A stretch of DNA of 52,606 nt, from the IMG/VR virus record IMGVR_UViG_3300010367_000142, positions 1-52,606 of that record; one strand, written 5' to 3'. Shown here in pieces: positions 12,856 to 51,463 of the stretch. A program made the position numbers and the translations under genes. Every line of letters begins with the position of its first letter. Within the stretch, counting starts at the first letter, position 1. The notes under the pieces were generated by a model, which saw only the letters and a program-made list of their open reading frames with translations, ran no database searches and had not been told where the DNA came from. Source of the DNA: a virus.

Positions 12856-13752
12856 CTAGAACTCGTACCGCGTCGTGAGCAGGTCGCCGTTCTTGACGAT
12901 CCTGTACAGCCCCAAGGGGTGTCGATCTTCCGAGTAGGTCACCCGCAGAGTGACCAGCAGGGGTACGACCCCAAAGACCTTTACCGCCTCGGCGTTGGCC
13001 GGAGCTGCAGTGACCCGGTCTGTCGTCTCGTGGACCGTGCTGTCGGCTCGGGCTTCGGGGTGCCGGTAGAAGTGCACGAGCTCCACCGGGCGGCCGTCGA
13101 TCACCCGGACCCATCTCTTCGCGTCGAGATCCGTTCCTGGCGGTACACCCAGGGCCGCGCAAGAACGCGGCGAGGGAGTCGCGCGGTGCGTCGACATCTG
13201 CTCGATAGATCCCTCTGTGCCCTCGCTGCCTGCCACCTCATGGCGGAGGCCGGCAGGGGTGACCGCGACGACACCGAAGCCCTGTCGGCCGACAGCGAAT
13301 CCCTGAGCCTTGAGGAGATTCAGGGCGCGCTGGATGGTGAGCGATGCGACCCCGTAGACCTCGATCAGCGTCCGAACCGTGGGGAATCGATCGCCTGACC
13401 GCATGGCTCCCGACTGGATGAACCCTTTCAGTTCGTGGGCGATGAACTCGTATGGGCTCCAGGTTCCGCCAGGGATCTCGTTCGGACCCCATGGGGTGAT
13501 CTCGTCGATGATCGACGACGGCTTGTTCTGGTGATTGTGCAGCGGCTTCTCGGCGCGGATCGCAGCGCGTTCCGCGTCGAGCGCTTCGGGCCGGCTGTCG
13601 AGCCACTCCGTCGTCTTGTCTGCAACGTCTGACCACCAGGGCTTGGATTCCGCATGCTGGCGCCAGCGGGCTTCCGTGTTGCCGCTGACCCCGACGTAGA
13701 GCAGCTGTCCGGCGGCATCGAAGAAGCGGTAGAGCGCGGTGCGCTCGGTCAT
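12856..13752 (-). CDS. GIY-YIG nuclease-GntR regulator fusion
   Basis: 298 aa from the ATG at 13752. Residues 1-75 are a GIY-YIG domain: Y8 in ALYRFF, Y19 in LLYVGVS, R29/R31 in ARWRQH, E61 in LDAERAAI and N73 in KPLHN, so all catalytic positions are kept. Residues about 100-165 form a winged HTH of the GntR type (ELKGFIQSGAMRSGDRFPTV, then ASLTIQRALNLLKAQGF), and the rest is a UTRA-like ligand domain. The opposing control region has TTCGAA palindromes. It could bind the operator and cut DNA, or use the GIY-YIG fold only as a sensor; function inferred. Confidence 0.8.
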   Translation of the reverse strand: MTERTALYRFFDAAGQLLYVGVSGNTEARWRQHAESKPWWSDVADKTTEWLDSRPEALDAERAAIRAEKPLHNHQNKPSSIIDEITPWGPNEIPGGTWSPYEFIAHELKGFIQSGAMRSGDRFPTVRTLIEVYGVASLTIQRALNLLKAQGFAVGRQGFGVVAVTPAGLRHEVAGSEGTEGSIEQMSTHRATPSPRSCAALGVPPGTDLDAKRWVRVIDGRPVELVHFYRHPEARADSTVHETTDRVTAAPANAEAVKVFGVVPLLVTLRVTYSEDRHPLGLYRIVKNGDLLTTRYEF

Positions 13753-13841
13753 AGGCGAGGTATCCCTTCTGGCATGTCTGGCTGCCTCACGCCCCCGGAG
13801 GATCGGGGTTGTGTGCGGCGCCACACCCACCGTGACGCAAG

Positions 13842-13853
13842 TCCTTCGAAGGA
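13842..13853. promoter_or_regulatory. TTCGAA operator site 1 (minus-strand promoter)
   Basis: Palindrome TCCTTCGAAGGA. On the minus strand TTGACT (13858-13853) and CACGGT 18 bases later flank it, so it lies in the spacer of the likely promoter of the GIY-YIG/GntR gene. Occupancy there would block RNA polymerase. Confidence 0.7.
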
Positions 13854-13910
13854 GTCAAGCCCTTCGCTCATTTCGCCCAGTTCGCATCACGGATCGACAG
13901 GTAGTTAACA

Positions 13911-13920
13911 TCTTCGAAGA
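13911..13920. promoter_or_regulatory. TTCGAA operator site 2 (variant)
   Basis: TCTTCGAAGA, a variant of the other sites, 20 bases before the GntR start. A TAACAT that fits the TAnnnT -10 pattern lies at 13907. The position suggests autoregulation of the second GntR gene. Confidence 0.5.
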
Positions 13921-13939
13921 AGTCGATCGAGGAGGACCA

Positions 13940-14692
13940 TTGGCACCACGCAAGGGGGAGCCCGGGAGGTTCCTGTACAAGGAGCTTGCGGCGGAGTTCC
14001 GCGCCCAGATCCAGTCCGGCGCGCTGGCCCCTGGTGACATGCTCCCAAGTGAGACTGTGCTCATGGAGGGGCGCGGGGTCGCTCGCTCGACCGTTCGCCA
14101 AGCCTACGATCTCCTCAAGGCCGAGGGGCTTGCCGCAAGCAAGCAGGGGAAGGGCGTCTACGCGCTGAACCCCAAGAAGATTGTCCGTAACGCACAGAAG
14201 CGCCTCTCTCGCGAGGTCTGGGAATCCGGACGATCCATCTGGAGTATCGACCTCGAGGGGCGCGAGCCGAACGCGCAAGTCGAGGTCGACGCCGACATCG
14301 AGGCGCCCGGGTATATCGCCGGCGTGCTCAGCGTCCAGCGAGTGTGTCGACGGCGGCGAGTTTTCTCCCTCGATGACCGCACGCTCATGGTGGCCACGTC
14401 CTACCTGCCTGCCGATCTCGCCCAGTTGGCCAGCATCGATCAAGTCGACACGGGCCCCGGCGGGATGTATGCCCGACTCTCCGATGCTGGTCGCGCTCCG
14501 GTTGATGCGAAGGAGCGCATCAGGGCGCGCGTCGCCATGCCCGACGAGGTCGACGTGCTGGAGCTCGGCGCCGGCGCATGCGTGATTGTTATCGAGCGGA
14601 CTGTCACCGACGCCGAGGAGCGAATCCTCGAGGTCAATGAGATGACGCTCGATGCCGCACGTTACGTCCTGGAGTACGACTTCAAGCTGTAG
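13940..14692 (+). CDS. GntR-family regulator (UTRA-type)
   Basis: 250 aa from a TTG, chosen because GGAGGA lies four bases upstream and the domain begins soon after; longer frames start in unrelated sequence. Residues about 10-75 are the winged HTH (YKELAAEFRAQIQSGALAPG, MLPSETVLMEGRGVARSTVR, QAYDLLKAEGL). The rest is a UTRA-like domain (LSVQRVCRRRRVFSLDDRTL; VIVIERTVTDAEERILEVNE). In Streptomyces integrating elements such regulators (KorSA, TraR types) repress xis and transfer genes. It is flanked by TTCGAA palindromes and followed by a terminator. Confidence 0.85.
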   Translation: MAPRKGEPGRFLYKELAAEFRAQIQSGALAPGDMLPSETVLMEGRGVARSTVRQAYDLLKAEGLAASKQGKGVYALNPKKIVRNAQKRLSREVWESGRSIWSIDLEGREPNAQVEVDADIEAPGYIAGVLSVQRVCRRRRVFSLDDRTLMVATSYLPADLAQLASIDQVDTGPGGMYARLSDAGRAPVDAKERIRARVAMPDEVDVLELGAGACVIVIERTVTDAEERILEVNEMTLDAARYVLEYDFKL

Positions 14693-14705
14693 CTGCCCCG
14701 CCAGT

Positions 14706-14740
14706 AGCCCCCTCTGACATCCGTCAGTGGGGGCTTTTTC
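14706..14740 (+). terminator. Rho-independent terminator after GntR
   Basis: AGCCCCC...GGGGGCT with an inner CTGAC/GTCAG stem, separated by a T/T mismatch, and a run of T directly after it. The best intrinsic terminator in the window. Confidence 0.9.
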
Positions 14741-14780
14741 GTGCACCCGAACCCCCGCGAACTCAGTTCACTTGGCGAGC

Positions 14781-14809
14781 TTGACAACTCCTTCGAAGGA
14801 CTGCATGGT
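14781..14809 (+). promoter_or_regulatory. Promoter of the xis/transfer operon
   Basis: TTGACA (14781-14786), a 17-base spacer, and CATGGT (14804-14809). The spacer contains the palindrome TCCTTCGAAGGA, so the GntR-type protein could block the promoter directly. It drives the excisionase-like gene 57 bases downstream. Confidence 0.75.
14789..14800. promoter_or_regulatory. TTCGAA operator site 3
   Basis: TCCTTCGAAGGA inside the spacer of the xis promoter. With its left flank (TGACAACT) it mirrors site 4, whose right flank is AGTTGTCA; the pair forms one large symmetric structure. Confidence 0.75.
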
Positions 14810-14822
14810 TGAACCCGTCGAC

Positions 14823-14836
14823 CTCCTTCGAAGGAG
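14823..14836. promoter_or_regulatory. TTCGAA operator site 4
   Basis: CTCCTTCGAAGGAG, 14 bp palindrome just downstream of the expected transcription start. Two sites about 34 bp centre to centre suggest cooperative binding of dimers. Confidence 0.75.
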
Positions 14837-14865
14837 TTGTCACCAACTAGCCATTGGAGCCCTGC

Positions 14866-15105
14866 GTGAACGCCGAAGCCCGAGACCCCGTCGCAGCGCC
14901 AGGTGACGAACTGCTGGAAGCCAAGCAGGTCGCCGCGCTCATGAAGGTCCATGTCGCCACCGTCTATCGCTTGGCCGATAGCGGCCGACTGAAGGCCATG
15001 CGACTGGGGTCGGGCGAGAAGAGGCGTCGCGGCTTCCGCTGCTGGGCCTCGGAGGTTCACGCATACATGCACGGCTCGCAAATCCCTACCGAGGAGGCGG
15101 CATGA
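14866..15105 (+). CDS. Excisionase-like (MerR/HTH_17) DNA-binding protein
   Basis: 79 aa; GTG start with GGAG six bases upstream. LLEAKQVAALMKVHVATVYR, then LADSGRLKAMRLG is the winged-helix fold of Xis/AlpA-type proteins, followed by a basic wing (GEKRRRGFRCWASEVHAYM). In Streptomyces integrating elements the gene sits beside the integrase and controls excision. No integrase is seen nearby, so it may act as a transcription or segregation factor. First gene of the transfer operon. Confidence 0.8.
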   Translation: MNAEARDPVAAPGDELLEAKQVAALMKVHVATVYRLADSGRLKAMRLGSGEKRRRGFRCWASEVHAYMHGSQIPTEEAA

Positions 15106-15413
15106 CCACCGCAATCTCCACTCAGACCCCCACGACCCACACCCCGACTCCGAACTCCCACTTTGCGGCGATGCGCCGCTACGAGGATGCTGCTCGCAGC
15201 GTCTCGGTCCGTCGCTCGGCTGGCAGTATCCCGGCCAGCGAGTTGGAGGCGGCGATGGCGACCCAGGAGAGCTACTACCTGCTGGCTGCCGCGTACCGTT
15301 GTGCGGCTCACCGTCGGGAGCGTGCCGAGAGGTTCGCGGCATCCCGTCCGGGCACGTTGCTCCGCGTCATCGGGCGCGGTGTGCGTGCCGTGCGATCGGC
15401 GGTGGCGGCATGA
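15102..15413 (+). CDS. Small transfer-region protein
   Basis: 103 aa, ATGA overlap with xis. The N-terminus is Thr/Pro rich; residues 25-90 are helical and basic (AAMRRYEDAARSVSVRRS, ESYYLLAAAYRCAAHRRERA). Similar helical proteins are common in plasmid and AICE spd regions. Function unknown. Confidence 0.6.
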   Translation: MTTAISTQTPTTHTPTPNSHFAAMRRYEDAARSVSVRRSAGSIPASELEAAMATQESYYLLAAAYRCAAHRRERAERFAASRPGTLLRVIGRGVRAVRSAVAA

Positions 15414-15808
15414 GCGCCCCGCTCCCCACGGATCTTCCCGTTGCCCCGCTCCCCGTGCCTGTGATCGCCGCGATGCACCGGATTGAGGCGCGTCTGGCGG
15501 TTGCGTCGGCTGGCGAGTCGCTGACCGTCAACGGCGTGACGTGTATGGCGGTGTCGCTGCGGGTGGCGGATCTGTTGGCCCGGCACGACCGGCTGCAGTC
15601 GCGTTGCCGGCGTCTGTCGGCGAAGGCGGTCACGTCGGAGGACTACAACCAGTTGTTCGACTGGCATGTGTTCCTCACCGACTGTCGCTGCCAGCTCGAG
15701 GCTGCTGGCGCGTTGCATCTGGTCGGCGAGCGCGAGAAGGCGAAGGAGCCGACGCTCCCGCAGCGCCCTCGTGGCCCGCACCCGCAGTGCGCGGAGGCGG
15801 TTGTCTGA
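15410..15808 (+). CDS. Small transfer-region protein
   Basis: 132 aa from the ATG overlapping the previous stop. The middle is helical (VIAAMHRIEARLAVASAGES, VADLLARHDRLQSRCRR) and it contains CRCQLEAAGAL. No known family; operon position suggests a transfer or spread accessory. Confidence 0.6.
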   Translation: MSAPLPTDLPVAPLPVPVIAAMHRIEARLAVASAGESLTVNGVTCMAVSLRVADLLARHDRLQSRCRRLSAKAVTSEDYNQLFDWHVFLTDCRCQLEAAGALHLVGEREKAKEPTLPQRPRGPHPQCAEAVV

Positions 15809-15978
15809 TGGCGCGCACTGTGTACGCCGAGGTCGATGCAGGTCATCCGCGCGGTTCGTGGCCGGCGGAGGAGAAGGCGGCCGAGCTGACCGCCTCCGGT
15901 GTCCCGGCGACGGTCGTGATGTCGATGGACGAGGGCAAGTTCCTCGTCGTCCCGAAGCCTGAGGGGCGGCCGTTGTGA
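15808..15978 (+). CDS. Hypothetical 56-aa protein
   Basis: 56 aa, ATG overlapping the previous stop. Contains HPRGSWPAEEKAAELTASGV and ATVVMSMDEGKFLVVPKP, a possible small alpha/beta fold. The next start overlaps its stop as GTGA. Function unknown. Confidence 0.55.
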   Translation: MARTVYAEVDAGHPRGSWPAEEKAAELTASGVPATVVMSMDEGKFLVVPKPEGRPL

Positions 15979-16055
15979 CGGATGCCGAGAAGGCTGAGTT
16001 GTCCCGCAAGGTCGCCGAGGCGAACAAGCGCTCCGAGGAGCGCCCCCGCGGCTAG
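15975..16055 (+). CDS. Possible 26-aa helical peptide
   Basis: Short frame with GTG overlapping the previous stop. The product is a single charged helix (DAEKAELSRKVAEANKR). A structured RNA region follows at once. Kept because of the overlap; certainty is low. Confidence 0.35.
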   Translation: MTDAEKAELSRKVAEANKRSEERPRG

Positions 16056-16062
16056 CCCACCA

Positions 16063-16116
16063 AAGCCGCCGCACTGGCGGGGATGACGTCCCCTGCGGCC
16101 TCCGTCAGTGCGGCTT
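16063..16116 (+). other. Long RNA hairpin between transfer genes
   Basis: Two nested stems: GGGGA/TCCCC with a 5-base loop, and an outer AAGCCG/CGGCTT with CACTG/CAGTG. The whole element spans 54 bases with a small bulge. It may terminate or attenuate the operon; no T run follows. Confidence 0.5.
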
Positions 16117-16171
16117 CCAACCCTGCACCACCCCCACTGCACCTACACCCCGAGAGGGTTTGTGATCCCCC

Positions 16172-16402
16172 ATGTCTCCATACCTGTTCAGCGCCGACTA
16201 TGCCGTCACCGAGTTCGGCCGTCAGGCCCGCGCCAACACGACGGTCGCTGAGGCGTCCGTCCTCAGCATCAGTGACTTGTTTGGCGAGTACGCCAGGGCT
16301 CGTGCGGCTGGTGATCTGGCTTTGATGTGGCAGATCCGGCAGCTCACCGACGGGCAGCTGCTCGCCGAGCTGGACGGCTTCGACTACCCGGCTGCCGCCT
16401 GA
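16172..16402 (+). CDS. Small transfer-region protein
   Basis: 76 aa, ATG with GAGAGGG upstream at a rather long distance. The helical pattern has YAVTEFGRQARANTTVAEA and LFGEYARARAAGDLALMWQ. Its A.A.GD... segment is a weak match to the A...GD mini-protein pattern at 17688 and 17908. Function unknown. Confidence 0.6.
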   Translation: MSPYLFSADYAVTEFGRQARANTTVAEASVLSISDLFGEYARARAAGDLALMWQIRQLTDGQLLAELDGFDYPAAA

Positions 16403-16782
16403 TGGCTGCCGTCGAGATCGTGTCGTTCGGGTTCCTGCACGGCCCGGCGCCGGAAGCAGACATCGTGCTGGACCTGCGGCGCGCATTCCGCGACCCGCAC
16501 ATCGACCCGCGTATGCGGGAGTTGACCGGCCGGGACCGGCGTGTGCGGCGGGCCGTGCTCCGTACCGCCGGGATCCGCGCCCTACTGAAGGCCACCGTGC
16601 AGCAGGTGCGGGCCTACACGAAAGGCCCGGGCGTCGAGCGGATCGTGATCGGGTCAGCGTGCGCCGGCGGGAGGCACCGCTCGGTTGTCGTCGCCGACAA
16701 GCTTGCCCGCCGACTCCGGCGCCGCGGCCACACCGTGACCGTCCACCACCGCGACCTGCACCGCCCCGTCGTCCAGCGCTGA
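16402..16782 (+). CDS. RapZ C-terminal-domain-like protein
   Basis: 126 aa, ATG start next to the previous stop. SFGFLHGPAPEADIVLDLR, DPHIDPRMRELTGRDRRVRR and IVIGSACAGGRHRSVVVAD match the C-terminal domain of RapZ/YvcJ, whose hallmark is the GRHRS (or GQHRS) loop after a parallel strand. Full-length RapZ has an N-terminal kinase-like domain; only the C-terminal part is present. In E. coli this domain binds RNA and GlcN6P; whether it does so here is unknown. Confidence 0.8.
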   Translation: MAAVEIVSFGFLHGPAPEADIVLDLRRAFRDPHIDPRMRELTGRDRRVRRAVLRTAGIRALLKATVQQVRAYTKGPGVERIVIGSACAGGRHRSVVVADKLARRLRRRGHTVTVHHRDLHRPVVQR

Positions 16783-16823
16783 CCGACTCGACTATTCCCC
16801 TCCATCAGAAGGAGTTACCCGAC

Positions 16824-17024
16824 ATGAGCACCCGCATCCTCACCCGCGCCGCCGAACTCACCGGCAACCGCAATGCCGCCGTCGATATCCAAGACGACAC
16901 CCGCCGCTCCTACGCCCGCTGCCAGCCGTGCGGTTGGACCCGGGACCACGGCACCGCCTACCGCGAGCAGCTCATCAAGTGGGCGCAGGAGCACGCCGAC
17001 CAGTGCACCGCCCTCCCCAGCTAG
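16824..17024 (+). CDS. Small Cys/His protein of the transfer module
   Basis: 66 aa, ATG with AAGGAG upstream. YARCQPCGWTRDH followed by AQEHADQC fits a C-x2-C...H...H-x3-C zinc finger. It is one of several separately translated mini genes, each with its own ribosome site. Function unknown; may bind DNA or a partner in transfer. Confidence 0.65.
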   Translation: MSTRILTRAAELTGNRNAAVDIQDDTRRSYARCQPCGWTRDHGTAYREQLIKWAQEHADQCTALPS

Positions 17025-17037
17025 ACCGACCGACTAG

Positions 17038-17082
17038 CCCCGGCCCGGCCACCACGGGCGTCCGCAGCAAAGCAGGCCGGGG
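17038..17082 (+). terminator. Hairpin between transfer mini genes
   Basis: CCCCGGCC/GGCCGGGG 8-bp stem with a long loop containing CCACGGGCGTCC. It may be an attenuator or processing site. Confidence 0.45.
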
Positions 17083-17119
17083 CACGCACCGCACCATCCC
17101 CCGATCTGAGAGGACCCGC

Positions 17120-17191
17120 ATGTCGCAGGACACGCCGAAGCCGACCCCCAAGCGCGACTACCCCATCCTCATCCCGAGCAAGCCGGTCTGA
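17120..17191 (+). CDS. Possible 23-aa peptide
   Basis: Short frame, ATG with GAGAGGACC nine bases upstream. Product is Pro/Lys rich (SQDTPKPTPKRDYPILIPS). The ribosome site is reasonable but the product is too short to judge. Confidence 0.35.
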   Translation: MSQDTPKPTPKRDYPILIPSKPV

Positions 17192-17218
17192 GCAGCCCGC
17201 AACCCCGAGGAGAACCGC

Positions 17219-17395
17219 ATGGCGAGTAACCGCCGTATCGACAAGACCACGCAGACGTTCGCCGGCACTTCGTACCGCGTCGCCGGTGATCCCGAGCCGG
17301 TCGCGTTCAAGACCAGCGCCGAGGCCGAGAAGCGGGCCGAGCGCCTGGACGCTGCCGAAGCGATCGCCGACGCGTACCGCAACCCCAACCGCTGA
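17219..17395 (+). CDS. Small transfer-region protein
   Basis: 58 aa, ATG with GAGGAGAACC. Contains GTSYRVAGDPEPVAFKTSAEA and AEKRAERLDAAEAIADAY, a helical tail. The pattern YRVAGD.P...FKTSAEAE resembles the product at 18160 (YRVAGDQPYKTHPTEAEAK), so the two are probably related. Function unknown. Confidence 0.65.
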   Translation: MASNRRIDKTTQTFAGTSYRVAGDPEPVAFKTSAEAEKRAERLDAAEAIADAYRNPNR

Positions 17396-17438
17396 CCGGC
17401 AACTGCCGGATCAGACACCCCAACCGGAAGAGCCAGCC

Positions 17439-17606
17439 ATGGGCCTGCTCAGCAAGAACGAGACCGGTATGCCCTGCCAGGCATGCGGCCACGACACCAC
17501 CCCGCAGGACCCCGCCGTCCGGATCAAGGGCGACAACGCCCGCATCCACAAGAGCCACACCACGACCCCCGGCAGCGGCTTCTTCGGAGCCAAGACCAAG
17601 CGCTGA
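17439..17606 (+). CDS. Small zinc-binding-like mini protein
   Basis: 55 aa, ATG with GGAAGAG upstream. MPCQACGHDTTPQDP gives one C-x2-C; RIKGDNARIHKSHTTTPG supplies His residues. Probably a single metal site. Function unknown. Confidence 0.6.
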   Translation: MGLLSKNETGMPCQACGHDTTPQDPAVRIKGDNARIHKSHTTTPGSGFFGAKTKR

Positions 17607-17648
17607 CCGGCTGCCCGATCCGTCCGTCTCGCACGGGCGGTGAGGGGA

Positions 17649-17666
17649 GCCGGGACAGCCCCGGCC
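17649..17666 (+). repeat. Junction hairpin repeat, copy 1
   Basis: GCCGGG/CCCGGC small stem within an intergenic stretch (17604-17687). Together with GCTGACCG, CCCGATCCG and GGCGGTGAGG it is repeated after the gene ending at 18072, so the intergenic region was duplicated with its genes. Confidence 0.55.
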
Positions 17667-17687
17667 ACCTGGATGAGGAGAAATCAC

Positions 17688-17864
17688 ATGGGCCGATTCA
17701 GCCCCGTAGCAAAGCGCCACATCGACGCCGCCACCGAGGCGAAGGCGCGCGGCGACCGTTCAGAGATGTTCAGCCAGCTCTCGCAGCTCGTCCTCAACGG
17801 CACCGATGAGGATGCAGCGCGGGTGATGTTCGCGGCAGTCAAGGCCGCGAACAAGGGTCGCTGA
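17688..17864 (+). CDS. Helical mini protein (A...RGD...type)
   Basis: 58 aa, ATG with GAGGAG seven bases upstream. AATEAKARGDRSEMFSQLSQ and EDAARVMFAAVKAAN form two amphipathic helices. It shares the A-K-x-R-G-D-R core and the second helix with the products at 23362 and 23550, and more loosely with that at 17908. Function unknown. Confidence 0.65.
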   Translation: MGRFSPVAKRHIDAATEAKARGDRSEMFSQLSQLVLNGTDEDAARVMFAAVKAANKGR

Positions 17865-17907
17865 CCGACTGCCCGCCGTATCACACACCATCTGAAAGGA
17901 GCCCGCG

Positions 17908-18072
17908 ATGGGCCAGTTCGACACCGTCGAGGGCAACCGGCAGGTCGCAGACCTCGCCGACCACCGTGCCGCTGAAGCCCTGGAGAAGGGCGACACCGAC
18001 AGGGCTTACGTCGCCAGTTCCTTCGCCGCCACCGCTCGTGACATCGCCGACCTGATCGAGCGCAAGGGCTGA
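17908..18072 (+). CDS. Helical mini protein (A...KGD...type)
   Basis: 54 aa, ATG with AAAGGAG. HRAAEALEKGDTDRAYVASS, then FAATARDIADLIERKG, a two-helix hairpin with the same build as its neighbour (helix, KGD turn, helix). Family membership is by pattern only. Unknown function. Confidence 0.6.
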   Translation: MGQFDTVEGNRQVADLADHRAAEALEKGDTDRAYVASSFAATARDIADLIERKG

Positions 18073-18159
18073 CCGTTCCCCGATCCGCCGGACCCTGCAC
18101 CCCTGGCGGTGAGGAGACCCGGCCAGCCCGGCCCCGTCCCGAACCTGAAGGAGCACCGC
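18070..18159 (+). repeat. Repeated gene-junction sequence, copy 2
   Basis: Starting at the stop codon region, GCTGACCG..., CCCGATCCG, GGCGGTGAGG and CAGCCCGGCC recur in the same order as in 17604-17687. It marks a past duplication of a mini-gene plus its spacer. Confidence 0.6.
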
Positions 18160-18315
18160 ATGTCGATCGAGAAGACCTACGAGCCCGGCGTCCGCCCCGG
18201 CACGCTGCGCGACGTGTACCGAGTCGCCGGCGACCAGCCGTACAAGACCCATCCCACCGAGGCCGAGGCGAAGGAGCGGGAAGCCGAACTCGCCGCCGAC
18301 ACCGACACCGACTGA
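18160..18315 (+). CDS. Small transfer-region protein
   Basis: 51 aa, ATG with GAAGGAG. YRVAGDQPYKTHPTEAEAK and an acidic, helical tail. Probable relative of the product at 17219. Last small gene before the membrane protein. Function unknown. Confidence 0.65.
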   Translation: MSIEKTYEPGVRPGTLRDVYRVAGDQPYKTHPTEAEAKEREAELAADTDTD

Positions 18316-18374
18316 CCGTCCACCACCCGCAAGATCCACCACCCCCGCGAAGATCCCGGAAGGACTGAACCGCC

Positions 18375-19772
18375 ATGACCGCCAGCCCGCCGACTGTGAA
18401 CGGCCACGCCCGGCCGCCGGCCCTGCAGGTCATGGGGGACTGGCAGCCCATAGACGCCACCCCCACCGAGCCCGAGACCGCCGAACCCCCCACCGCCGAG
18501 CCGCTCGACACCGAGTCGGACGTCGTCGCCCAGGCCAAGGCCGAGGCGATCCGTGCCGAAGCGTGGGCCAAGTCCGAGAAGCAGCGCATCGCCGCCGAAG
18601 CCGAAGCTGAGGAGCGCCGTATCAAGGCCGAGGCTGAGGCTGACGCCATCCGCATCCAGGCGGAGGAGAATGCCCGCAAGCTCCACCTCGCCAACAACCG
18701 CGCCGCCCGCAAGGAAGCCGAGGATCAGGCCGCATCCGACGCGCGGATCGCCGACCACAACCGGCGCCGCGACGAAGCCGATCGAGCCCGCCGGCAGGCA
18801 GTCCGTCAGGAGGCGGAGCAGCAGCAGACCGAGGTTAAGCAGGCGAAAGCCGTTCAGGAGTCCGGCAAGAGGTGGCGCAACGTCGCTCTCGCCTTCTACG
18901 CCTTGTGTGCCGCAGTTGCCCTCCCGGTTCAGATGGCCGCCTTCTACAACCCGGATGCCAAGTACCTGCTCGTCGCCCCGGTCTTCATCGAAGTGATCGC
19001 CTTGGTCGCCCTTGTCGGCGCGGCTGCCGCCGTCACGGCTGGCCGCCCGCACTGGCACTACCGGCTAGTCGCCTGGGCGGGCGCGCTCACGGCCGCGACC
19101 ATCAACATCGTTCACGGGCTCGCCGAGTATGACGCGGCGACCGCGTTCGGGACTGCGCTCGCTTCGATCGCCGGCCCTGGCATGTGGGACCTCCACGAGC
19201 ACGGACGCATCCGCAAGCGTGACGGCAAGTTGTCACGGCGGGAGCGGCAGGCCGCGAAGAAGGCGGCCAAGGCGGAGAAGAAGCGGAAGGCGTCCGAGGA
19301 GAAGCAGCGGGCCGTCGAGAATGCTGCCGCAGACAAGGCGGCCGAGGCGGAGCGGCAGCGGCTTTCGAAGCAGCGCCAGGAAGAGTTCAAGGACGTCTGG
19401 CCGGAGGCCGTGAAGATCGCCGCTGCTGTCGGATCGACCACCGATGACGACGCCGTGTGGGTGCGCGCCTACCGCAACATCAAGGGCTGCGATCCGGGCG
19501 AGTCCATCGAGTCCATCACCGCCCGCCGGGCAGCCGAGAAGCGCGTCCAGGCAGCCCTCACCGGCACCCCCGTGAACACCCTCAGCAAGACCACGAACGC
19601 GCAGCGTGCGATCCAAATTAAGAACCCTTCACGGCGGTCCTCGTACAAGCCTGTTCCGCCCGTCCGCCAGCCCGGCGACACGCCTTCGTATCACCCCGCT
19701 GCGCGTCGTGCTCACGGCGAGACGAAGCGCCGCACGAACGCCGCCAAGTCCTCCCGCCCGAACGACGTCTAA
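18375..19772 (+). CDS. DUF2637-like transfer membrane protein with long coiled coils
   Basis: 465 aa, ATG behind GGAAGGACTG. Residues about 45-160 are a long charged coiled coil (EAEERRIKAEAEADAIRIQ); 165-270 hold four close membrane helices (VALAFYALCAAVALPVQMAA; YLLVAPVFIEVIALVALVGA; LVAWAGALTAATINIVHGL and one more), the arrangement of the DUF2637/Spd-type proteins of Streptomyces plasmids; 280-345 form a second coiled coil; then a basic tail. It lies just upstream of traB. Likely a membrane partner of TraB in plasmid spread between hyphal compartments. Confidence 0.75.
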   Translation: MTASPPTVNGHARPPALQVMGDWQPIDATPTEPETAEPPTAEPLDTESDVVAQAKAEAIRAEAWAKSEKQRIAAEAEAEERRIKAEAEADAIRIQAEENARKLHLANNRAARKEAEDQAASDARIADHNRRRDEADRARRQAVRQEAEQQQTEVKQAKAVQESGKRWRNVALAFYALCAAVALPVQMAAFYNPDAKYLLVAPVFIEVIALVALVGAAAAVTAGRPHWHYRLVAWAGALTAATINIVHGLAEYDAATAFGTALASIAGPGMWDLHEHGRIRKRDGKLSRRERQAAKKAAKAEKKRKASEEKQRAVENAAADKAAEAERQRLSKQRQEEFKDVWPEAVKIAAAVGSTTDDDAVWVRAYRNIKGCDPGESIESITARRAAEKRVQAALTGTPVNTLSKTTNAQRAIQIKNPSRRSSYKPVPPVRQPGDTPSYHPAARRAHGETKRRTNAAKSSRPNDV

Positions 19773-19795
19773 CCCACTCTCAGGAGACCCCAGTC

Positions 19796-20389
19796 ATGAA
19801 CGAGTCCTTTCGTCGGATCGCCGTTTCGGGCAGTGCGGCTGTCGCCCTCCTCGGAGGCGTCGCCACCCTGGCTGTCGCGAACGCCGAGCCTGCTTCTGCG
19901 ACCGAGATTCAGTCCGCTGTCGACCGCGCTACGGGAGCCGCGGTGAAGTTGCCGGACGGCCGCACCCTCCACGTGCCCGGCATGGACGCCGCGGCCTACC
20001 GGGTCGACGCCGGCCACTACACGGCGGCCGTCACCCTCGCCTCCGCCAAGACCAGCATCGGCAGCACGGGCGACATCACCAACGGGCTCACCCCCGACAG
20101 CGGCTCCGCCCTCCAGAACCCCTTCAACACCGGGCAGGTGCCCGCCGGCTACGGCCAGCAGATCCAGACCCAGGCAGGCGGGGGCACCATCAGCCTGACC
20201 GTGGCCATCGGTGTCGCCCTCCTCGCCGTGGTCATCGTCATGGTCAAGAAGGGCCACGTGAAGTTCGCCCAGGCGTTCGCCTGTGTCGCTCTCGGCGTGT
20301 ACCTCGCCCCGACGTTCTTCGGCCCGCTGATCCAGCAGCTCGGCGGGTCCGCGGCGAGCGGCCTCGGCAACGTCTGGGCCGGTTTCTAA
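19796..20389 (+). CDS. SpdB-like transfer protein with signal sequence and two TM helices
   Basis: 197 aa, ATG with AGGAGAC. Residues 8-30 form a signal-like helix ending at AxA (LAVANAEPASA). Middle is hydrophilic and Gly/Thr rich. Two helices follow (TISLTVAIGVALLAVVIVMV and FAQAFACVALGVYLAPTFFG) with a short KKGH loop. The hairpin recalls pilin-like VirB2/TrbC topology, but Spd proteins of Streptomyces plasmids also look like this. Sits between the DUF2637-like gene and traB. Confidence 0.7.
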   Translation: MNESFRRIAVSGSAAVALLGGVATLAVANAEPASATEIQSAVDRATGAAVKLPDGRTLHVPGMDAAAYRVDAGHYTAAVTLASAKTSIGSTGDITNGLTPDSGSALQNPFNTGQVPAGYGQQIQTQAGGGTISLTVAIGVALLAVVIVMVKKGHVKFAQAFACVALGVYLAPTFFGPLIQQLGGSAASGLGNVWAGF

Positions 20390-20449
20390 GCCACCCCACC
20401 GCGGGGCCCACCTAGGGCCCCGCTCCTCTCCCGGAAAGGAATCGGCCCT

Positions 20450-22723
20450 GTGGCCACCGAGATCGAGCGCACTCCCGTCGAGCAGCAGGCAATCCCGCCC
20501 ATGCCCGTCGACCCACCCAAGACGCCCGAACCGTCGCGAGGCGACCGTGCCAGGGCTGCGTTCAAGGAGCAGAGCGGTCACGCTGGCGCCCGTATGAAGG
20601 ACTGGTTGGCCACCCGCGACCTCGAACTCCTCGACGTCGTACAGGCCGCCACTGAGGCCAAGCAGCGCAAGCACACGCAGCGCCTCGCGCAGCAGCAGCG
20701 GCTCGTCGCCGAAGCCCACGGCCGATTCGCCCACGCCAAGATGCAGGCCGACGCCAGTGAAGGCGGCAGCAGCGCGAACGCCCTGTCCGGTCTCGCTGGC
20801 CGGGTTGCCGCGGAGGAAGCCAAGCTGGCCGGGATGCAGGCGATACCGCTGCTGCCGCCCACCGACCGGGAGATCAACAACACCCGGCACGGGAAGAAGG
20901 CCACACGGGCCGGCATCGTCGCCGGAGGGGGCATCGGGTCCCTCTCCGTGCTCGGCACCGCCGTCGAGCAGGTCGCCAACGGCCAGCCCCTTCTCCTCGG
21001 GGTCGCAGTCACCGCGGCAGGCTATGGCTGGTACCTGCTGTCCCGCCCCTTCGTGGCAGGCCGCGACGGGCAGGCGGTCGAGGCCCCTTTCGCCTTGACC
21101 CCGGCCAGCCTGCCCGCCACATTTCAGGCGGGGACGGCCGGGGGAGCGGCGCCGATCGTCGGCGGGAACGTCGTCATGTCCGTCGAGCAACTTCCCGAAG
21201 GCGCCAAGCCGTTCCCCATCCGCAACGCGCAGACGCCTGACCAGCTCGCCCAGTGTGTGCTGCTGGCGGCGCGAGCCGAGAGCGTGCCGATCGTCGAGGT
21301 GTCGGACGTGCAGCGGCAGCCGTGGGGCTGGCAGTGCACCGTCCGCGTCTCCGACGGCACACCGGAGGCGATCATCGCCAAGGCGGGTGACCTGGAGACC
21401 CGATTCGATCTCCCCACCAACGGCGTCCGACCGCAGCCGATCAAAGCCCGCCGAGCATGCGCCATCCTGCGACTCATCGAAGGCAACCCGTTCGCCACCG
21501 CCCCTGGCCTGCCTTACCGGGCCCCCAAATCGCTTTCGGTCACCGACAAGTTCCGCGTCGGTACCTCGGTCGGCGGCGATCCGCTGGAGCTGTCCCTCGC
21601 CGGCGTTATGGGTCTGTGGGTGGCGGCCTCCGGTGGCGGCAAGACCGGCATCCTTCAGGCGCTGGCCGAAGGCGTAACGGCCTGCCGCGACAACATCACG
21701 ATCGACCTCGACCCGTTCGGTGACGGCCTCGAAGACCTCGGGGACGCAGTAAGGATCACAGCCCGTACCACCGAGCAGATCGAAGCGGTCCTGCTGTTCT
21801 TCCTGGTTATGGCAAAGGGCCGTGCGCGGCTGCGGGCCAAGCTCGGCATGGGGAAAAAGTGGCAGGCGAGCCCTGAACGCCCCGCTGTCACGATCTTCTT
21901 CGACGAGCTCCCGAAGGCCAGCGCGCTGGCCAAGCGCCTGTACTTCGACCTGCTGCTCGTCGGCCGCAAGGAGCTGATCGTCGAGCAGGCTGCCGCGCAG
22001 GGCGGCCAGAGCAGCTACCTCGGGGCCAACATCGCCCAGATGGTCGCCCTCGCGGCGGTCGGCCCCTGCAAGGTCGAGGACACCCGGTCGGTGTTCGGTG
22101 ACGGTTCCGTCAGGGAGGGCTACCTCCCCCACAAGCTGTCCCCGGCCACCGCCACAGACCCGAAGGATGCCGGCCACATCTTCATCCAGGGTGTGCCGGG
22201 CATGGCGGACGAGCCGATCGAGTACGCCATCCACGAAGTGCCGTCCGCGACTCTGCGGCAGCTCGGTCAAGAGCGCCTGGAATCCGGACTACTCGATCCA
22301 GACCAGGACAGCCTCGACGCCATGCGCGGCGTCGACCTGCCCGAGTACGTCGAGCCCGAGTACGACAAGGACGGAAACCTGAAGAAGCCGGCCCCCGTCG
22401 AACTCCTCACCTGGGAGCAGCTGCTCAAGCTGTGCGGCGCCGAGCCGCCCGCCAGTGCGGAGCTCACGGACGGTCCCGCGCGCGCCGCGGTTGAGGCTGC
22501 GGTGGCGCTCATGGAGAAAGTGAGCGTCGACCGGATGACAACGGAGACGCTGCTCGCGGCCGTCCAGGGCTACGACCCCAGCGTGTATGGCGAGATGGCT
22601 GTCGACGAGCTCAAGGCGCTGATGAGCCAGGCCGGTGTTGGTGGGCCCGTTCAGCTCGGGGCCATGGGTGACAAGAAGAATCCGCGCGGCTTCAAGCTTG
22701 ATCGACTCCGCGCCGCTCTCTGA
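20450..22723 (+). CDS. traB: TraB/FtsK-type DNA translocase
   Basis: 757 aa, GTG with GGAAAGGAA. N-terminal coiled coil (about 60-115) and two TM-like segments (155-200). The ATPase has Walker A AASGGGKTG at about 393-401, where the first Gly of the usual GxxxxGK is Ala, and Walker B VTIFFDEL at about 480-487. C-terminal 70 residues (MTTETLLAAVQGYDPSVYG, KNPRGFKLDRL) fit a winged HTH like FtsK-gamma/TraB. TraB forms hexameric pores and moves double-stranded plasmid DNA between mycelia (family knowledge); it is the only protein strictly needed for transfer in several Streptomyces plasmids. Confidence 0.9.
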   Translation: MATEIERTPVEQQAIPPMPVDPPKTPEPSRGDRARAAFKEQSGHAGARMKDWLATRDLELLDVVQAATEAKQRKHTQRLAQQQRLVAEAHGRFAHAKMQADASEGGSSANALSGLAGRVAAEEAKLAGMQAIPLLPPTDREINNTRHGKKATRAGIVAGGGIGSLSVLGTAVEQVANGQPLLLGVAVTAAGYGWYLLSRPFVAGRDGQAVEAPFALTPASLPATFQAGTAGGAAPIVGGNVVMSVEQLPEGAKPFPIRNAQTPDQLAQCVLLAARAESVPIVEVSDVQRQPWGWQCTVRVSDGTPEAIIAKAGDLETRFDLPTNGVRPQPIKARRACAILRLIEGNPFATAPGLPYRAPKSLSVTDKFRVGTSVGGDPLELSLAGVMGLWVAASGGGKTGILQALAEGVTACRDNITIDLDPFGDGLEDLGDAVRITARTTEQIEAVLLFFLVMAKGRARLRAKLGMGKKWQASPERPAVTIFFDELPKASALAKRLYFDLLLVGRKELIVEQAAAQGGQSSYLGANIAQMVALAAVGPCKVEDTRSVFGDGSVREGYLPHKLSPATATDPKDAGHIFIQGVPGMADEPIEYAIHEVPSATLRQLGQERLESGLLDPDQDSLDAMRGVDLPEYVEPEYDKDGNLKKPAPVELLTWEQLLKLCGAEPPASAELTDGPARAAVEAAVALMEKVSVDRMTTETLLAAVQGYDPSVYGEMAVDELKALMSQAGVGGPVQLGAMGDKKNPRGFKLDRLRAAL

Positions 22724-22935
22724 CTGATACATCCCGTTATGTCTGTCGGTCGGGGCCTGCTAGTGGCCTGGTTGGCAGAAGAATCAGCAGGTCGCAGCCG
22801 CTATCGGCTCTGGTCGCGCGTCGGTCGTAGCAGCAGCATAGCGGCGCTCGTAGCGGCTGTGACCTGCGGCGATACATCCAGACCAGCCCCGACCAGGGGC
22901 AATAAACCATCACAAATCGGAATGGAGATCCACTC
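22724..22935. repeat. 212-bp intergenic element with long inverted repeat
   Basis: Arms GCAGGTCGCAGCCGCTA (22787-22803) and TAGCGGCTGTGACCTGC (22851-22867) differ at one base over 17. GATACATCC occurs at both ends (about 22726 and 22871), TAGCGGC is repeated, and a 5-bp hairpin GCCCC/GGGGC lies at 22886-22900. It is placed right after traB, where Streptomyces plasmids often hold the clt transfer locus. No known TRS octamer (GACCCGGA) cluster is present here. Confidence 0.65.
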
Positions 22936-23340
22936 ATGTCCAAGTGCTGGCAGCCCAACCAGGCGAGCAAGTTCGCCAAGGAAGTCAAGCTCGGCAAGCC
23001 CTACTACACGGTCAACGACATGGCCACGAACCTCGCCCCCTGGGGAGACGCCCAGACCTACTCGGTCCACGTCTTCACCGAGCGCTCCAGTTTCACCGCC
23101 CGTCCGATGACCGACGGAGGCACCTCCGCCGTCGGCCTGTGCCAGCGGCAGGGCCCGGTCTACGACGCGCCGCCCCGCGGCCTCCGCAACATTGCCGGAC
23201 CCGCCCCCCAGGTCGCCGGCCCGCTCCCCGCCGGATACGAGGGCGTCCTCGACGAGGACGAGATCCGCGGCCTGGAGAAGCGCGTCCGTGACGGATCTGA
23301 TCCCCGCACCCGCCGCTCGCCCAGGTCCTGGCGCATCTGA
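22936..23340 (+). CDS. Hypothetical transfer-region protein
   Basis: 134 aa, ATG with GGAG eight bases upstream. The N-terminal half looks like a small beta domain (KLGKPYYTVNDMATNLAPWG, DAQTYSVHVFTERSSFTARP). C-terminal half Pro/Arg rich with DEDEIRGLEKRVRDGSDP. No family recognised. It follows the inverted-repeat element. Confidence 0.55.
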   Translation: MSKCWQPNQASKFAKEVKLGKPYYTVNDMATNLAPWGDAQTYSVHVFTERSSFTARPMTDGGTSAVGLCQRQGPVYDAPPRGLRNIAGPAPQVAGPLPAGYEGVLDEDEIRGLEKRVRDGSDPRTRRSPRSWRI

Positions 23341-23361
23341 CAACCGATCAAGGAGAACCCC

Positions 23362-23544
23362 GTGCAGTACACCCACCAGTCCGTGCAGGAGTACGTCGCA
23401 GCGAAGAAGCGCGGCGACCGCGCCGCCACCGACCGCATTCTCGCCGAGGTGACGGCCCGCTTCGACACCCGCACCACCGACGGCAGCGAAGCCCGCGAAC
23501 TCTTCGAAGCCACCATGAGCGTCCAGTTCAGCGAAGGGGAGTGA
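23362..23544 (+). CDS. Helical mini protein, paralogue of neighbour
   Basis: 60 aa, GTG with AAGGAG seven bases upstream. MQYTHQSVQEYVAAKKRGDR, then AATDRILAEVTARFDTRTTD and ARELFEATMSVQF. It matches the next gene over the first half (Y-x-H-Q-S-V...F/Y-V-A-A) and the gene at 17688 in its R-G-D-R core. Unknown function. Confidence 0.65.
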   Translation: MQYTHQSVQEYVAAKKRGDRAATDRILAEVTARFDTRTTDGSEARELFEATMSVQFSEGE

Positions 23545-23549
23545 CCGAG

Positions 23550-23726
23550 ATGGACTACAAGCATCAGTCGGTTCGCGACTTCGTTGCCGCGATGGGGAGC
23601 GGTGATCAGGCCGCTGCCGAACGGATCGCCCACGAGATCGTCGAGCGCAACAAGACCAGCGCCAACCCGGGCGAACTGTCCGAGCTCTCCTGGGCCAACG
23701 CGTCCACCCCGCTCGGCAACCAGTAG
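23550..23726 (+). CDS. Helical mini protein, paralogue of upstream gene
   Basis: 58 aa; ATG preferred over the overlapping GTG at 23541 because GGGGAG is eight bases upstream and the product then starts MDYKHQSV like its paralogue MQYTHQSV. Contains DFVAAMGSGDQAAAERIAHE, then IVERNKT, and ends in a Ser/Ala tail. Function unknown. Confidence 0.65.
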   Translation: MDYKHQSVRDFVAAMGSGDQAAAERIAHEIVERNKTSANPGELSELSWANASTPLGNQ

Positions 23727-23733
23727 CTCAGCC

Positions 23734-23774
23734 GGGGCGCCCCTTCCCGCCTGCCAGCAAAGCAGGGGCGCCCC
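23734..23774 (+). terminator. Terminator-like paired palindromes
   Basis: GGGGCGCCCC occurs twice, 21 bases apart, with CCTGC/GCAGG as an inner stem, so a long hairpin can form right after the mini-gene pair. Confidence 0.6.
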
Positions 23775-23814
23775 ATTCACCCGCCACGCGCCAACGCGCA
23801 GAAAGCCCACCCAC

Positions 23815-24336
23815 ATGACCACGACCACCCTGCCCGCAGCAAGCCCGCCCCGAGCGCCCGCGCCAACCCACCTCGACCTCGAAGCCCGACTTGCCCTCGT
23901 GGGCGCTCTCATGGCAGGCCGCCTCGACGAAGCGGCCGTCGCCTTCGAGGTGAACACCGCCCACATTTCCAGCGCCGACCCGATCCCCGAGAGGACCGCC
24001 CCGCTCCGACTCACCCCCGCGGCGACGCCCTGCCCGTACAACACGCCCATCGCGGCCACGCTTCACCGGGCGCGCATCCGGCTCGAGACCGACGGCTGGT
24101 GCCGCGACAACCTCTTCGACGAGTCCGGCGCGATCTGTCCTATCCGCGCCATCCGCCTCGAGGCCGCCAGCCGACGCGAAGCCGACGACGCGTGCGTGCT
24201 CCTCCTTGACGCCATCCGGCGCGACTTCGCCACCGCGGAGACGATCCCCAGCTGGAATGCGGCTCAGACCAGCGCCGCGCCCGTCCTGCTCTACCTCGGA
24301 CGCGCCGTCCAACTCGCCCATGCCCGCAACCTCTAG
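23815..24336 (+). CDS. DUF6197-like protein
   Basis: 173 aa. After a Pro/Thr linker, residues 80-173 contain TLHRARIRLETDGWCRDNLF, then CPIRAIRLEAA, EADDACVLLLDAIRRDF and ETIPSWNAAQTSAAPVLLYL. The G-W-C at the start, C at about 107 and I-P-x-W-N near the C-terminus match the DUF6197 pattern of actinobacterial plasmids and phages. Function unknown. Confidence 0.7.
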   Translation: MTTTTLPAASPPRAPAPTHLDLEARLALVGALMAGRLDEAAVAFEVNTAHISSADPIPERTAPLRLTPAATPCPYNTPIAATLHRARIRLETDGWCRDNLFDESGAICPIRAIRLEAASRREADDACVLLLDAIRRDFATAETIPSWNAAQTSAAPVLLYLGRAVQLAHARNL

Positions 24337-24361
24337 ACCCGACCAGAAGGAATTGATCCGC

Positions 24362-24586
24362 ATGGATTTCGACGAGAACGGCCGCGCCGTTTTCAGCGAC
24401 GAGGAGCGTGCCCAGATCGCTGGCGAGCAGGACCAAATCGCCGCGCGCCTATGGGAGGGCGTGACCCGTGTCGAAGCGAAGGGCGACATGCGGCAGGGCG
24501 GCAAGTTGCGGGCCCAGGCGTGCGAAGCCGAAGACCTCGCCAAAGCTGCTCGCGAATCCAGCGCCGCACTCGCCCGCATCTACTGA
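24362..24586 (+). CDS. Small helical hypothetical protein
   Basis: 74 aa, ATG with AAGGAATTG. Two helices: SDEERAQIAGEQDQIAARLW and KLRAQACEAEDLAKAARESS. No family recognised. Confidence 0.55.
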   Translation: MDFDENGRAVFSDEERAQIAGEQDQIAARLWEGVTRVEAKGDMRQGGKLRAQACEAEDLAKAARESSAALARIY

Positions 24587-24613
24587 TCCACCGCACCCGA
24601 AAGGACACCTCAA

Positions 24614-24916
24614 ATGGGAATCAGCATCAGCCACAGCGTTCCGTCCACCCGCTCCGCCACGACCATCGGCAACCTCGGCCAGCACCTCGCCCATACCCTC
24701 ACCGGCAGCGAATGGCGGCAGATCGCGCACCTCTTCGACGGCCACCTCCGTGCACCTGTGTACACGCCGCCCGCCGAAGCGGGACGCATCGGCAGCCTGC
24801 TCCACAAGGCCGCCAACAGCCGGGCCATGGACCGGGGATGGGGTGACCTCGCCACTCTCCTCGGCGACGCCGCCAACCGTGCGGCCCGCGCCGGCCAGAA
24901 CTGGGAATGGACCTGA
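24614..24916 (+). CDS. Hypothetical protein, end of the transfer-region run
   Basis: 100 aa, ATG with GAAAGGACACC. Contains NLGQHLAHTLTGSEWRQIAH and DRGWGDLATLLGDAANRAAR. Mostly helical. Ends four bases before a minus-strand gene end; a hairpin follows. Function unknown. Confidence 0.55.
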   Translation: MGISISHSVPSTRSATTIGNLGQHLAHTLTGSEWRQIAHLFDGHLRAPVYTPPAEAGRIGSLLHKAANSRAMDRGWGDLATLLGDAANRAARAGQNWEWT

Positions 24917-35570: not shown

Positions 35571-36350
35571 ATGGCCGACGACCTGCTCGTCATCATCCCC
35601 ACCCGCGGACGCCCACAGGCGATCCCGGAGATCGTGCAGGCGTGGGACGACACCGGGGCGACCGCAGACCTCCTGTTCGCCGTCGACACCGACGACCCGG
35701 AGCTGGCCGGCTACAAGAAGCATGCCACCGCACTGAAGGACGACGGACGGGTGCGGTTCACGTTCGGCAAACGGCGCAGACTGTGCGGCACACTGAACAC
35801 GCAGGCAGTGAAGGCGGCCAAGGGCTACCGGTTCCTCGCGTTCATGGGCGACGACCACCGGCCACGCCCCGCCGCGACGCCATGGGACGAGCGGATCCGC
35901 GTCTGCCTCTCCGGCGGCTCCGGCATCGTCTACGGCAACGACCTCCTGCAAGGCGAAGCCATGGCCACCGCCGTAGCGATGACGTCCGACATCGTCGACA
36001 CGCTCGGCTACATGGCGCCACCGGCGCTCGTGCACCTCTGCCTCGACATCGTATGGCTCGACTGGGGGCGCGGCATGGGGCGGATCACCTACCTCGACGA
36101 CATGGTCATCGAGCACCTCCACCCGGCGGCGGGCAAGGCCGAGCTGGATGCCGGATATGAAGAGGCCAACAGCGAGCAGCAGGTGTCCAGTGACTCCGCC
36201 GCCTACTACGACTACCGCGACAACGGCGGCCTCGAAGCCGACCTGGCCAAGCTGCGGAAGCTCGTCGCCTACAGCCAGGGTGGAGTGCTGGAACCCGGCA
36301 CCACCATCGCCCGCAACGCCACCGGTGCAGCTGAGGAGGTGGTCGCGTGA
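35571..36350 (+). CDS. Glycosyltransferase, GT2-like
   Basis: 259 aa, ATG. LLVIIPTRGRPQAIPEIVQA, LLFAVDTDDPELAGYKKHAT, then GYRFLAFMGDDHRPRPA are the GT-A features: nucleotide loop, and an acidic DxD-like motif (GDDHRP) near residue 105. Probably moves a sugar from a nucleotide donor to a protein, DNA base or glycan. It starts a three-gene cassette with methyltransferase and epimerase genes. Host-surface or virion target unknown. Confidence 0.8.
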   Translation: MADDLLVIIPTRGRPQAIPEIVQAWDDTGATADLLFAVDTDDPELAGYKKHATALKDDGRVRFTFGKRRRLCGTLNTQAVKAAKGYRFLAFMGDDHRPRPAATPWDERIRVCLSGGSGIVYGNDLLQGEAMATAVAMTSDIVDTLGYMAPPALVHLCLDIVWLDWGRGMGRITYLDDMVIEHLHPAAGKAELDAGYEEANSEQQVSSDSAAYYDYRDNGGLEADLAKLRKLVAYSQGGVLEPGTTIARNATGAAEEVVA

Positions 36351-43685: not shown

Positions 43686-43703
43686 GGAGGGAGTGGGTGG
43701 CGC

Positions 43704-45880: not shown

Positions 45881-46023
45881 ATCTCCCCATGCTGGGGGCC
45901 GCCTGTGGGCGGCTTCCTGAATCAGCTCAACCCGAGGCGCGTGCCGGCACGGTGCGCGCCTTCGCCATGCCCACTCTGCGTCAGCCGTCAGGCGGGCGCA
46001 CGTCCCGACACGGGAGCACCCAC
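45881..46023 (+). other. 143-bp spacer with hairpins before the scaffold gene
   Basis: CCCC/GGGG and GCCGCC/GGGCGGC hairpins occur close to the MuF-like stop, followed by GGCGCG/TGCGCGCC. They may set relative amounts of head proteins. No convincing gene. Confidence 0.45.
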
Positions 46024-46665: not shown

Positions 46666-46736
46666 TCTGACATTCGCAGCACCGGAATCTCCCATGTCAC
46701 GGGGCCGGGGTCGCTGCTCTTCCGGAAGGAGCCCCC

Positions 46737-47687: not shown

Positions 47688-47694
47688 CCCGCAG

Positions 47695-47724: not shown

Positions 47725-47744
47725 TGGGTAGATCGGAGTTCCTC

Positions 47745-51453: not shown

Positions 51454-51463
51454 CCGCTTTCGG

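Follow-up and report, generated by a model that had tools for sequence, protein, structure and literature searches.

The window analyzed here is the complete IMG/VR record IMGVR_UViG_3300010367_000142 (G000), a viral sequence of 52,606 bp that lacks end repeats and whose last gene is truncated at the end of the record. A codon-usage gene finder called 95 genes, nearly all on the plus strand, including a putative DNA transfer module at 13.9-24.9 kb, with a GntR-UTRA regulator, an excisionase-like protein with a helix-turn-helix domain (HTH_17), two membrane proteins, one of the DUF2637 type and one small, and an FtsK-like translocase (g41), as well as phage structural genes at 41.6-52.1 kb. The preliminary description of this DNA had placed phage and transfer genes on one record, and PHROG and Pfam comparisons confirm both the main parts of the module and the terminase large subunit (TerL), portal, capsid and tail genes. 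Directly 3' of g41 lies a non-coding gap that resembles a cis-acting locus of transfer (clt), and the pairing of translocase and site is the main subject of what follows.

The g41 gene (20450-22723, plus strand; 757 residues) matches phrog_12531 ("FtsK/SpoIIIE-like", 4e-64) and encodes a P-loop at residues 392-399 (AASGGGKT) that is invariant across 19 aligned proteins. The FtsK-type motor with intact P-loop that characterizes TraB-type proteins is thus present, in line with the TraB/FtsK translocase first proposed for this locus. A profile built from 19 prophage g41 proteins matched the FtsK protein of a linear plasmid of S. nojiriensis (2e-135) and those of pFP1 (6e-75) and pSLUN2 (1e-71), and gave a weak match to pZL12.71c (5e-6) over a 59-residue stretch. 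Phylogenetically, the 19 prophage proteins form one clade (100/100) whose closest group is composed of linear-plasmid FtsK proteins with moderate support (88/88), the deeper placement being unsure owing to long branches. These sequence comparisons establish a common descent of g41 and the plasmid translocases of the theta/linear type. The gene is under purifying selection, with a ratio of non-synonymous to synonymous differences (pN/pS) of 0.30-0.55. A sequence search of the PDB with g41 returned no meaningful match, and its C-terminal domain was modelled by AlphaFold as helical, with a predicted local distance difference test (pLDDT) score of 70. For pFP1 and pFP11, traB is said to be a functional transfer gene, and we infer that the pFP1 protein compared here is pFP1 TraB, since it is encoded by the FtsK-like gene of the pFP1 module. 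To judge from a reference title in PMC3583192, the conjugation loci of both plasmids have been characterized.

The gap that follows g41 (22724-22935, plus strand) spans 212 nt, within the 211-225 nt found in most relatives, and keeps a fixed register. In all 17 aligned gaps the invariant left anchor GCAGGTC is followed, usually 78-79 nt on, by its inverted copy TGACCTGC, a few gaps showing single-base departures; this right anchor also recurs in plasmids and in new genomes. In the window the left and right anchors (22787-22793 and 22860-22867, both plus strand) are 67 nt apart because of an 11-bp deletion, i.e., about one helical turn. The same pair stands right after the FtsK gene of pFP1, pSLUN2 and a Kitasatospora plasmid (99-100 nt apart, with other octamers), and was not found in pZL12 or in the three Stanwilliamsviridae phages inspected. 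Exact CTG[AC][TG]CAG octamers, 3-9 per gap, occur in 15 of the 20 gaps scanned (Poisson probabilities down to 1e-16), two of these 15 (RISH and S8352) being duplicates of G010 and G011; no exact octamer array was found in the remaining five (the window, G003, G004, G007 and S. griseoflavus). The octamers sit at fixed offsets and are mostly spaced by 10-12 bp or multiples thereof, i.e., helically phased, and array density peaks in the gap relative to the rest of its own record for 15 of 19 records.

The window itself holds five TAGC[AG]G sites: TAGCAG at 22757-22762 and TAGCGG at 22798-22803 on the minus strand, then TAGCAG at 22828-22833, TAGCGG at 22839-22844 (11 bp past the third) and TAGCGG at 22851-22856 (12 bp past the fourth) on the plus strand. 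This array was recognized through the motif and register of the relatives; its five sites compare with 0.12 expected (p-value 1.6e-7, for a motif chosen post hoc) and, after correction for the 11-bp deletion, lie near the canonical positions of the array. Another motif considered for the window array, CTGGTCGG, was rejected, its density in the gap being no higher than elsewhere. A reading of the gap as an RNA structure was also set aside: the covariation term is small (-0.75 kcal/mol) and the anchor pairs show little variation, and we therefore prefer a DNA site, without proof.

Seventeen FtsK genes from genomes outside the pattern discovery served as a test set, and the anchor pair follows nine of them. 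These include all four prophage-type genes (G160, G137, G063 and G205), with the pair 52-62 nt past the stop codon and 78-79 nt between anchors, and 5 of 13 more distant FtsK genes (G189, G157, G035, G080 and G130; spacing 78-100 nt). The array beats all 100 dinucleotide shuffles in 12 of the 17, with octamers that are element-specific. The anchor pattern alone is not uncommon (a handful per genome, barely above a reversed-pattern control), and is therefore informative only where it follows an FtsK gene. Loading of TraB at clt is reported to take place on 8-bp TraB recognition sequence (TRS) repeats (PMC4170104, PMC3583192). Element-specific short repeats as expected of a TraB system are thus recognizable at the sequence level, the window copy being weak when taken alone, and positions 22724-22935 look like a clt, i.e., a putative loading site for g41.

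In a comparison of 38 elements, array motifs are more alike where the C-terminal 90 residues of the translocase are more alike, after correction for motor-domain identity (partial Mantel r 0.22, permutation p-value 0.002), a covariation that may be read as recognition of the array by g41. Within the set of 23 closer elements, "VQLGA" near the g41 C-terminus is confined to two, the window and the distant G205, and these have five and seven TAGC[AG]G sites, respectively, and no GAGC[AG]G. The other 21 have T or P before LG, together with 2-11 GAGC[AG]G sites, often GATC[AG]G as well, and at most one TAGC[AG]G (Fisher test on the 23-element table, 1 in 253). Because the elements in the table are related to each other and the pattern was spotted only afterwards, the apparent link of VQLGA to TAGCRG and of T/P-LG to GAKCRG is a lead rather than a proof, if one with strong internal consistency.

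Beyond the window, g41 searches identified 15 IMG/VR contigs and eight loci in Streptomyces genomes, and g41 is 56-80% identical in 18 relatives, where the phage genes downstream of it are of several types. Among 199 Streptomyces genomes, 24 carry a g41 homologue, six of them prophage-type by score. The order of module, variable cargo, and head and tail genes is kept, orientation included, in G001, G003, G007, G009, G010, G015 and S. acidicola. New chromosomal cases likewise place the module upstream of phage genes, with TerL, portal, capsid and tape measure in G137 and G063, and TerL and portal of the G002 type in G160. Since head genes of several types stand beside one module, the module is kept while head modules are swapped. 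The window TerL shares 51% identity with the NBC_01549 protein but only ~34% with most others, and the window major tail protein is 81-84% identical to those of main-group members. In megablast searches, neither the module (against plasmids) nor the structural region (against phages) gave more than short stretches at 75-80% identity.

The relatives also document integration. In S. acidicola (NZ_VMNX01000001.1, 18869-198631; L076-L086), two identical units lie 89,881 bp apart with an integrase next to the junction, an insertion near a gene 3' end and unique sequence on both flanks, which represents either a tandem prophage (dilysogen) or an assembly of an integrated and a circular copy. NBC_01549 has 36-bp direct repeats 93,596 bp apart, adjoining a tyrosine integrase, and S. 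rishiriensis, at an acyl-CoA dehydrogenase-like gene, has 75-bp repeats separated by 64,840 bp. The copies in G137, G063 and G160 are part of contigs of 8.4, 7.3 and 10.5 Mb. An integrase with chromosomal integration flanked by attachment (att) sites was seen in relatives, the window being a fragment without its ends. The relatives thereby combine an integrase with a TraB-like gene, as do actinomycete integrative and conjugative elements (AICEs). Two ways of separating module and phage had been raised in the preliminary description. Separate replicons are contradicted by the synteny of module and phage genes in many independent prophages. An independent AICE inserted into a prophage was rejected because synteny is conserved and no integrase was found beside the module, the integrase being at the end of the whole prophage in these relatives.

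Gene content, synteny, the integration of relatives, translocase descent, purifying selection, and the architecture and co-variation of the cis site, all established by comparing sequences, form the ground for our interpretation. We consider it likely that the window represents part of the genome of a temperate tailed Streptomyces phage, with integrated relatives of ~65-94 kb, that stably carries a conjugation module of the theta/linear-plasmid type: the module order (GntR, small open reading frames, DUF2637, FtsK, non-coding gap) is that of pFP1, pSLUN2 and other plasmids. Mechanistically, we infer a route from excision to transfer between mycelia. Integrase and excisionase (Xis) would excise the element as circular double-stranded DNA, and the C-terminal domain of g41 would bind the clt-like site, reading the phased TAGCRG repeats. 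An ATP-driven g41 hexamer, membrane-anchored with the DUF2637 protein and g40, would then pump double-stranded phage DNA to a neighbouring hypha or across septa, and the GntR protein would hold the module off in the lysogen. In this scheme g41 would work like a TraB/clt system, even as a protein outside the classical TraB family of rolling-circle (RC) plasmids. The proposed dual spread, through virions and through hyphal contact, would gain in likelihood from the clt-like site. It is thus tempting to speculate on a widespread integrated lineage of temperate Streptomyces phages with two modes of spread, virions and TraB-type conjugation of double-stranded DNA, each member having its own clt, in which repeats co-evolving with the C-terminal reader are arranged around an anchor pair that conjugative plasmids also have; for this fuller proposal we regard the chances as evenly balanced.

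Several results weigh against a TraB/clt system at this locus. Pfam PF01580 (FtsK) gives no match to g41, and the g41 profile does not reach significance against pJV1 TraB (E-value 0.18), and for these reasons g41 falls, by sequence, outside the classical RC-plasmid TraB family. The AlphaFold models are poor, both that of full-length g41 (pLDDT 50), which was kept out of the fold search, and that of the C-terminal domain (pLDDT 70). Foldseek with the latter model, where a TraB-type protein would have a winged-helix DNA-binding domain, returned no significant match, the top matches including the winged-helix proteins Rex and Fur at E-values > 1. In unbiased discovery the window array is weak, with 20 of 100 shuffles reaching the same level, and the residue-motif link depends on the two VQLGA elements, noticed post hoc among related rows. 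Finally, sequence gives no backing for a Spd identity of g40 and of the small open reading frames.

The alternative that survives best, which we nonetheless regard as rather unlikely, is that the translocase acts within one mycelium, carrying the DNA of the prophage or of replicating phage through septa or into spores without transfer between individuals. Among deposited phages, 89 Streptomyces records match g41 through an FtsK-like motor (best ~34-38% identity); the three inspected, all Stanwilliamsviridae, have no gap or anchors after the motor gene, and no deposited phage matches g39, the DUF2637 protein, so that a phage can evidently use such a motor without plasmid-type context. On Streptomyces plasmids, moreover, spread between compartments is a step separate from, and following, transfer (PMC4170104). 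The temperate lineage described here, however, retains DUF2637, GntR and the clt-like site. Less probable still is a role of the array in the control of the operon that starts with g42, as an operator or other regulatory region, or in replication, as an origin, with no cis site for the translocase there. The gap does sit before g42, its repeats are palindromic and SpdA-type proteins have known palindromic sites on Streptomyces plasmids (PMC4170104), but the repeat sequence varies by element in step with the C-terminal end of the translocase encoded next to it, and plasmids that otherwise differ carry the same gap and anchors behind their FtsK genes.

An autonomous phage-plasmid maintained extrachromosomally like pZL12, the state raised as a possibility in the preliminary description, appears very improbable. 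The 90-kb circle of pZL12 does bring phage genes together with par genes and an FtsK-like gene, and a tyrosine recombinase and lysis genes are common to pZL12 and some of the relatives; the relatives, however, include att-flanked copies in large host contigs and the contigs of 7.3-10.5 Mb mentioned above, and a search for ParA in 12 records, several being fragments, was negative. Extrachromosomal maintenance with partition genes was thus not seen in the relatives, and this integration evidence, with the missing ParA, leaves the phage-plasmid label unsupported for them. That a plasmid or AICE fragment was captured by chance and is now decaying is hardly credible, for although the pN/pS of g40 and of g42 comes near 1 in several comparisons, a sign of fast evolution, retention is monophyletic across differing structural modules and g41 combines its low pN/pS with an intact P-loop and a co-varying cis site.

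Turning to the rest of the module, the GntR-UTRA regulator (13940-14692, plus strand; Pfam GntR 5e-17, UTRA 8e-19; phrog_10724 5e-45) is likely the repressor of the module, and a GntR gene also heads the same module in pFP1, pSLUN2, and S. nojiriensis and Kitasatospora plasmids. Divergent from the module and from this second GntR regulator is a GIY-YIG nuclease domain fused to a GntR-UTRA regulator (12856-13752, minus strand; Pfam; phrog_16880 endonuclease, 1e-21), an unusual domain pairing of which some relatives carry homologues of at least a part. An excisionase-like gene had been recognized from the outset, and the excisionase/BldC-like protein at 14866-15105 (plus strand) indeed scores over the cut-off of TIGR01764 (2.6e-8) and matches HTH_17 (3e-8). 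A companion gene encodes a RapZ C-terminal-domain protein (16402-16782, plus strand; PF22740 5e-30), 67-84% identical in those relatives carrying one. Such a gene stands alone in the module of several prophages, and pFP1 also has an annotated RapZ gene.

Five small open reading frames of 51-58 residues called in a run at 17219-18315 (plus strand) had been described as spd-like; the genes exist, yet no Spd homology was found and relatives mostly lack homologues. The DUF2637-like membrane protein proposed earlier corresponds to g39 (18375-19772, plus strand), with two strong transmembrane segments by hydropathy. Its identity comes from profile-profile comparison with plasmid DUF2637 proteins (hhalign probability 98.6%, E-value 1.2e-15), a direct Pfam scan having given no match. 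The next gene, g40 (19796-20389, plus strand), encodes a small exported or membrane protein according to hydropathy, is conserved in relatives and lies directly upstream of g41, the same placing as the small membrane gene of the plasmids. What stands of the earlier "SpdB-like protein" is therefore this position and not the name, homology to the plasmid membrane protein at that place having been rejected (profile comparison, 1.2% probability). Downstream, g42 (22936-23340, plus strand) and the DUF6197 protein g45 (23815-24336, plus strand; PF19698 1.5e-15) are present in all 13 IMG/VR relatives compared, and g47 (24614-24916, plus strand) is a DUF7739 protein (PF24881 2.7e-31). As to a replication initiator of the AICE (Rep) type, DnaB-like helicase sequences were noticed by eye in G002 and G007.

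The structural region, connector proteins included, was confirmed through PHROGs, and all its genes given here are on the plus strand: a probable terminase small subunit (41569-42027; phrog_1897 4e-11, with a stronger match to phrog_226, labelled minor tail protein), TerL (42036-43685; phrog_9 2.9e-74), portal (43704-45095; phrog_104 5e-120), a head maturation protease/MuF-like protein (45095-45880; phrog_193 1.3e-46), the major capsid protein (46737-47687; phrog_10 1.5e-46) and the major tail protein (51525-52109; phrog_117 9.7e-37). The terminase, portal, capsid and tail genes typical of a temperate tailed phage (Caudoviricetes) thus occur in both the window and its relatives; integrase, tape measure and lysis genes are absent from the window and all three are present in relatives. 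The stretch at 42036-52109 is mosaic, a less common TerL/portal/capsid type being joined to main-group-like tail genes. Glycosyltransferase-, methyltransferase- and epimerase-like genes lie amid the tail and head genes (35571-37821, 47952-48758 and 49371-50372), pointing to a possible sugar decoration of virion or DNA, and g90 is 68-80% identical in relatives vs. 22-34% for adjacent head genes.

Three things appear to be new, namely the integrated lineage, how widely it occurs, and a site of anchors plus array with reader residues to match; literature searches of open-licence papers gave no description of them. If the proposal is true, prophages would be a further vehicle of Streptomyces conjugation, able to move without host lysis, and constant anchors combined with variable repeats that correspond to a few residues at the C-terminus would offer a testable code for the loading of a translocase on its element; even for pSAM2, according to a 2022 AICE study, no clt had been described (PMC9513070).

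Among known systems, TraB of RC plasmids with clt/TRS (pSVH1, pIJ101 and pJV1) shares with the window an FtsK-type motor and loading-site repeats of ~8 bp that differ between plasmids (PMC4170104, PMC3583192), and differs in sequence, as seen above for pJV1. AICEs of the pSAM2 type are likewise integrated, with a tyrosine integrase, an excisionase-like gene, a TraB-type translocase and GntR control; defined by Int, Rep and TraB, those of a recent survey covered 11.9-36.2 kb (PMC9513070), whereas these prophages reach 65-94 kb and include head and tail genes. The Stanwilliamsviridae phages of Streptomyces (Wofford, Coruscant and Daubenski) have a homologous motor domain at ~36-38% identity and differ by the missing g39 match, 3' gap and anchors; in three phages of this family (L106, L121 and L122) the FtsK-like motor lies in a tRNA-rich region with no 3' gap. 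The theta plasmids pFP1 and pSLUN2 share the module order, followed by the gap with GCAGGTC...GACCTGC anchors and phased 8-mers, but they are circular plasmids typed by a MobF relaxase, with another 8-mer and, for pFP1, with ParA and no annotated phage structural genes. The closest precedent is pZL12/phage ZL12 (GQ919031; 90.4 kb), in which a GntR regulator and an FtsK-like gene accompany phage structural genes, and for which the title of Zhong et al. (2010) names replication, transfer and a plasmid/lytic phage cycle. It is a circular plasmid with ParA/ParB whose FtsK protein (pZL12.71c) is only distantly similar, whereas the relatives of the window are integrated, and the window element is a variant of what pZL12 showed extrachromosomally.

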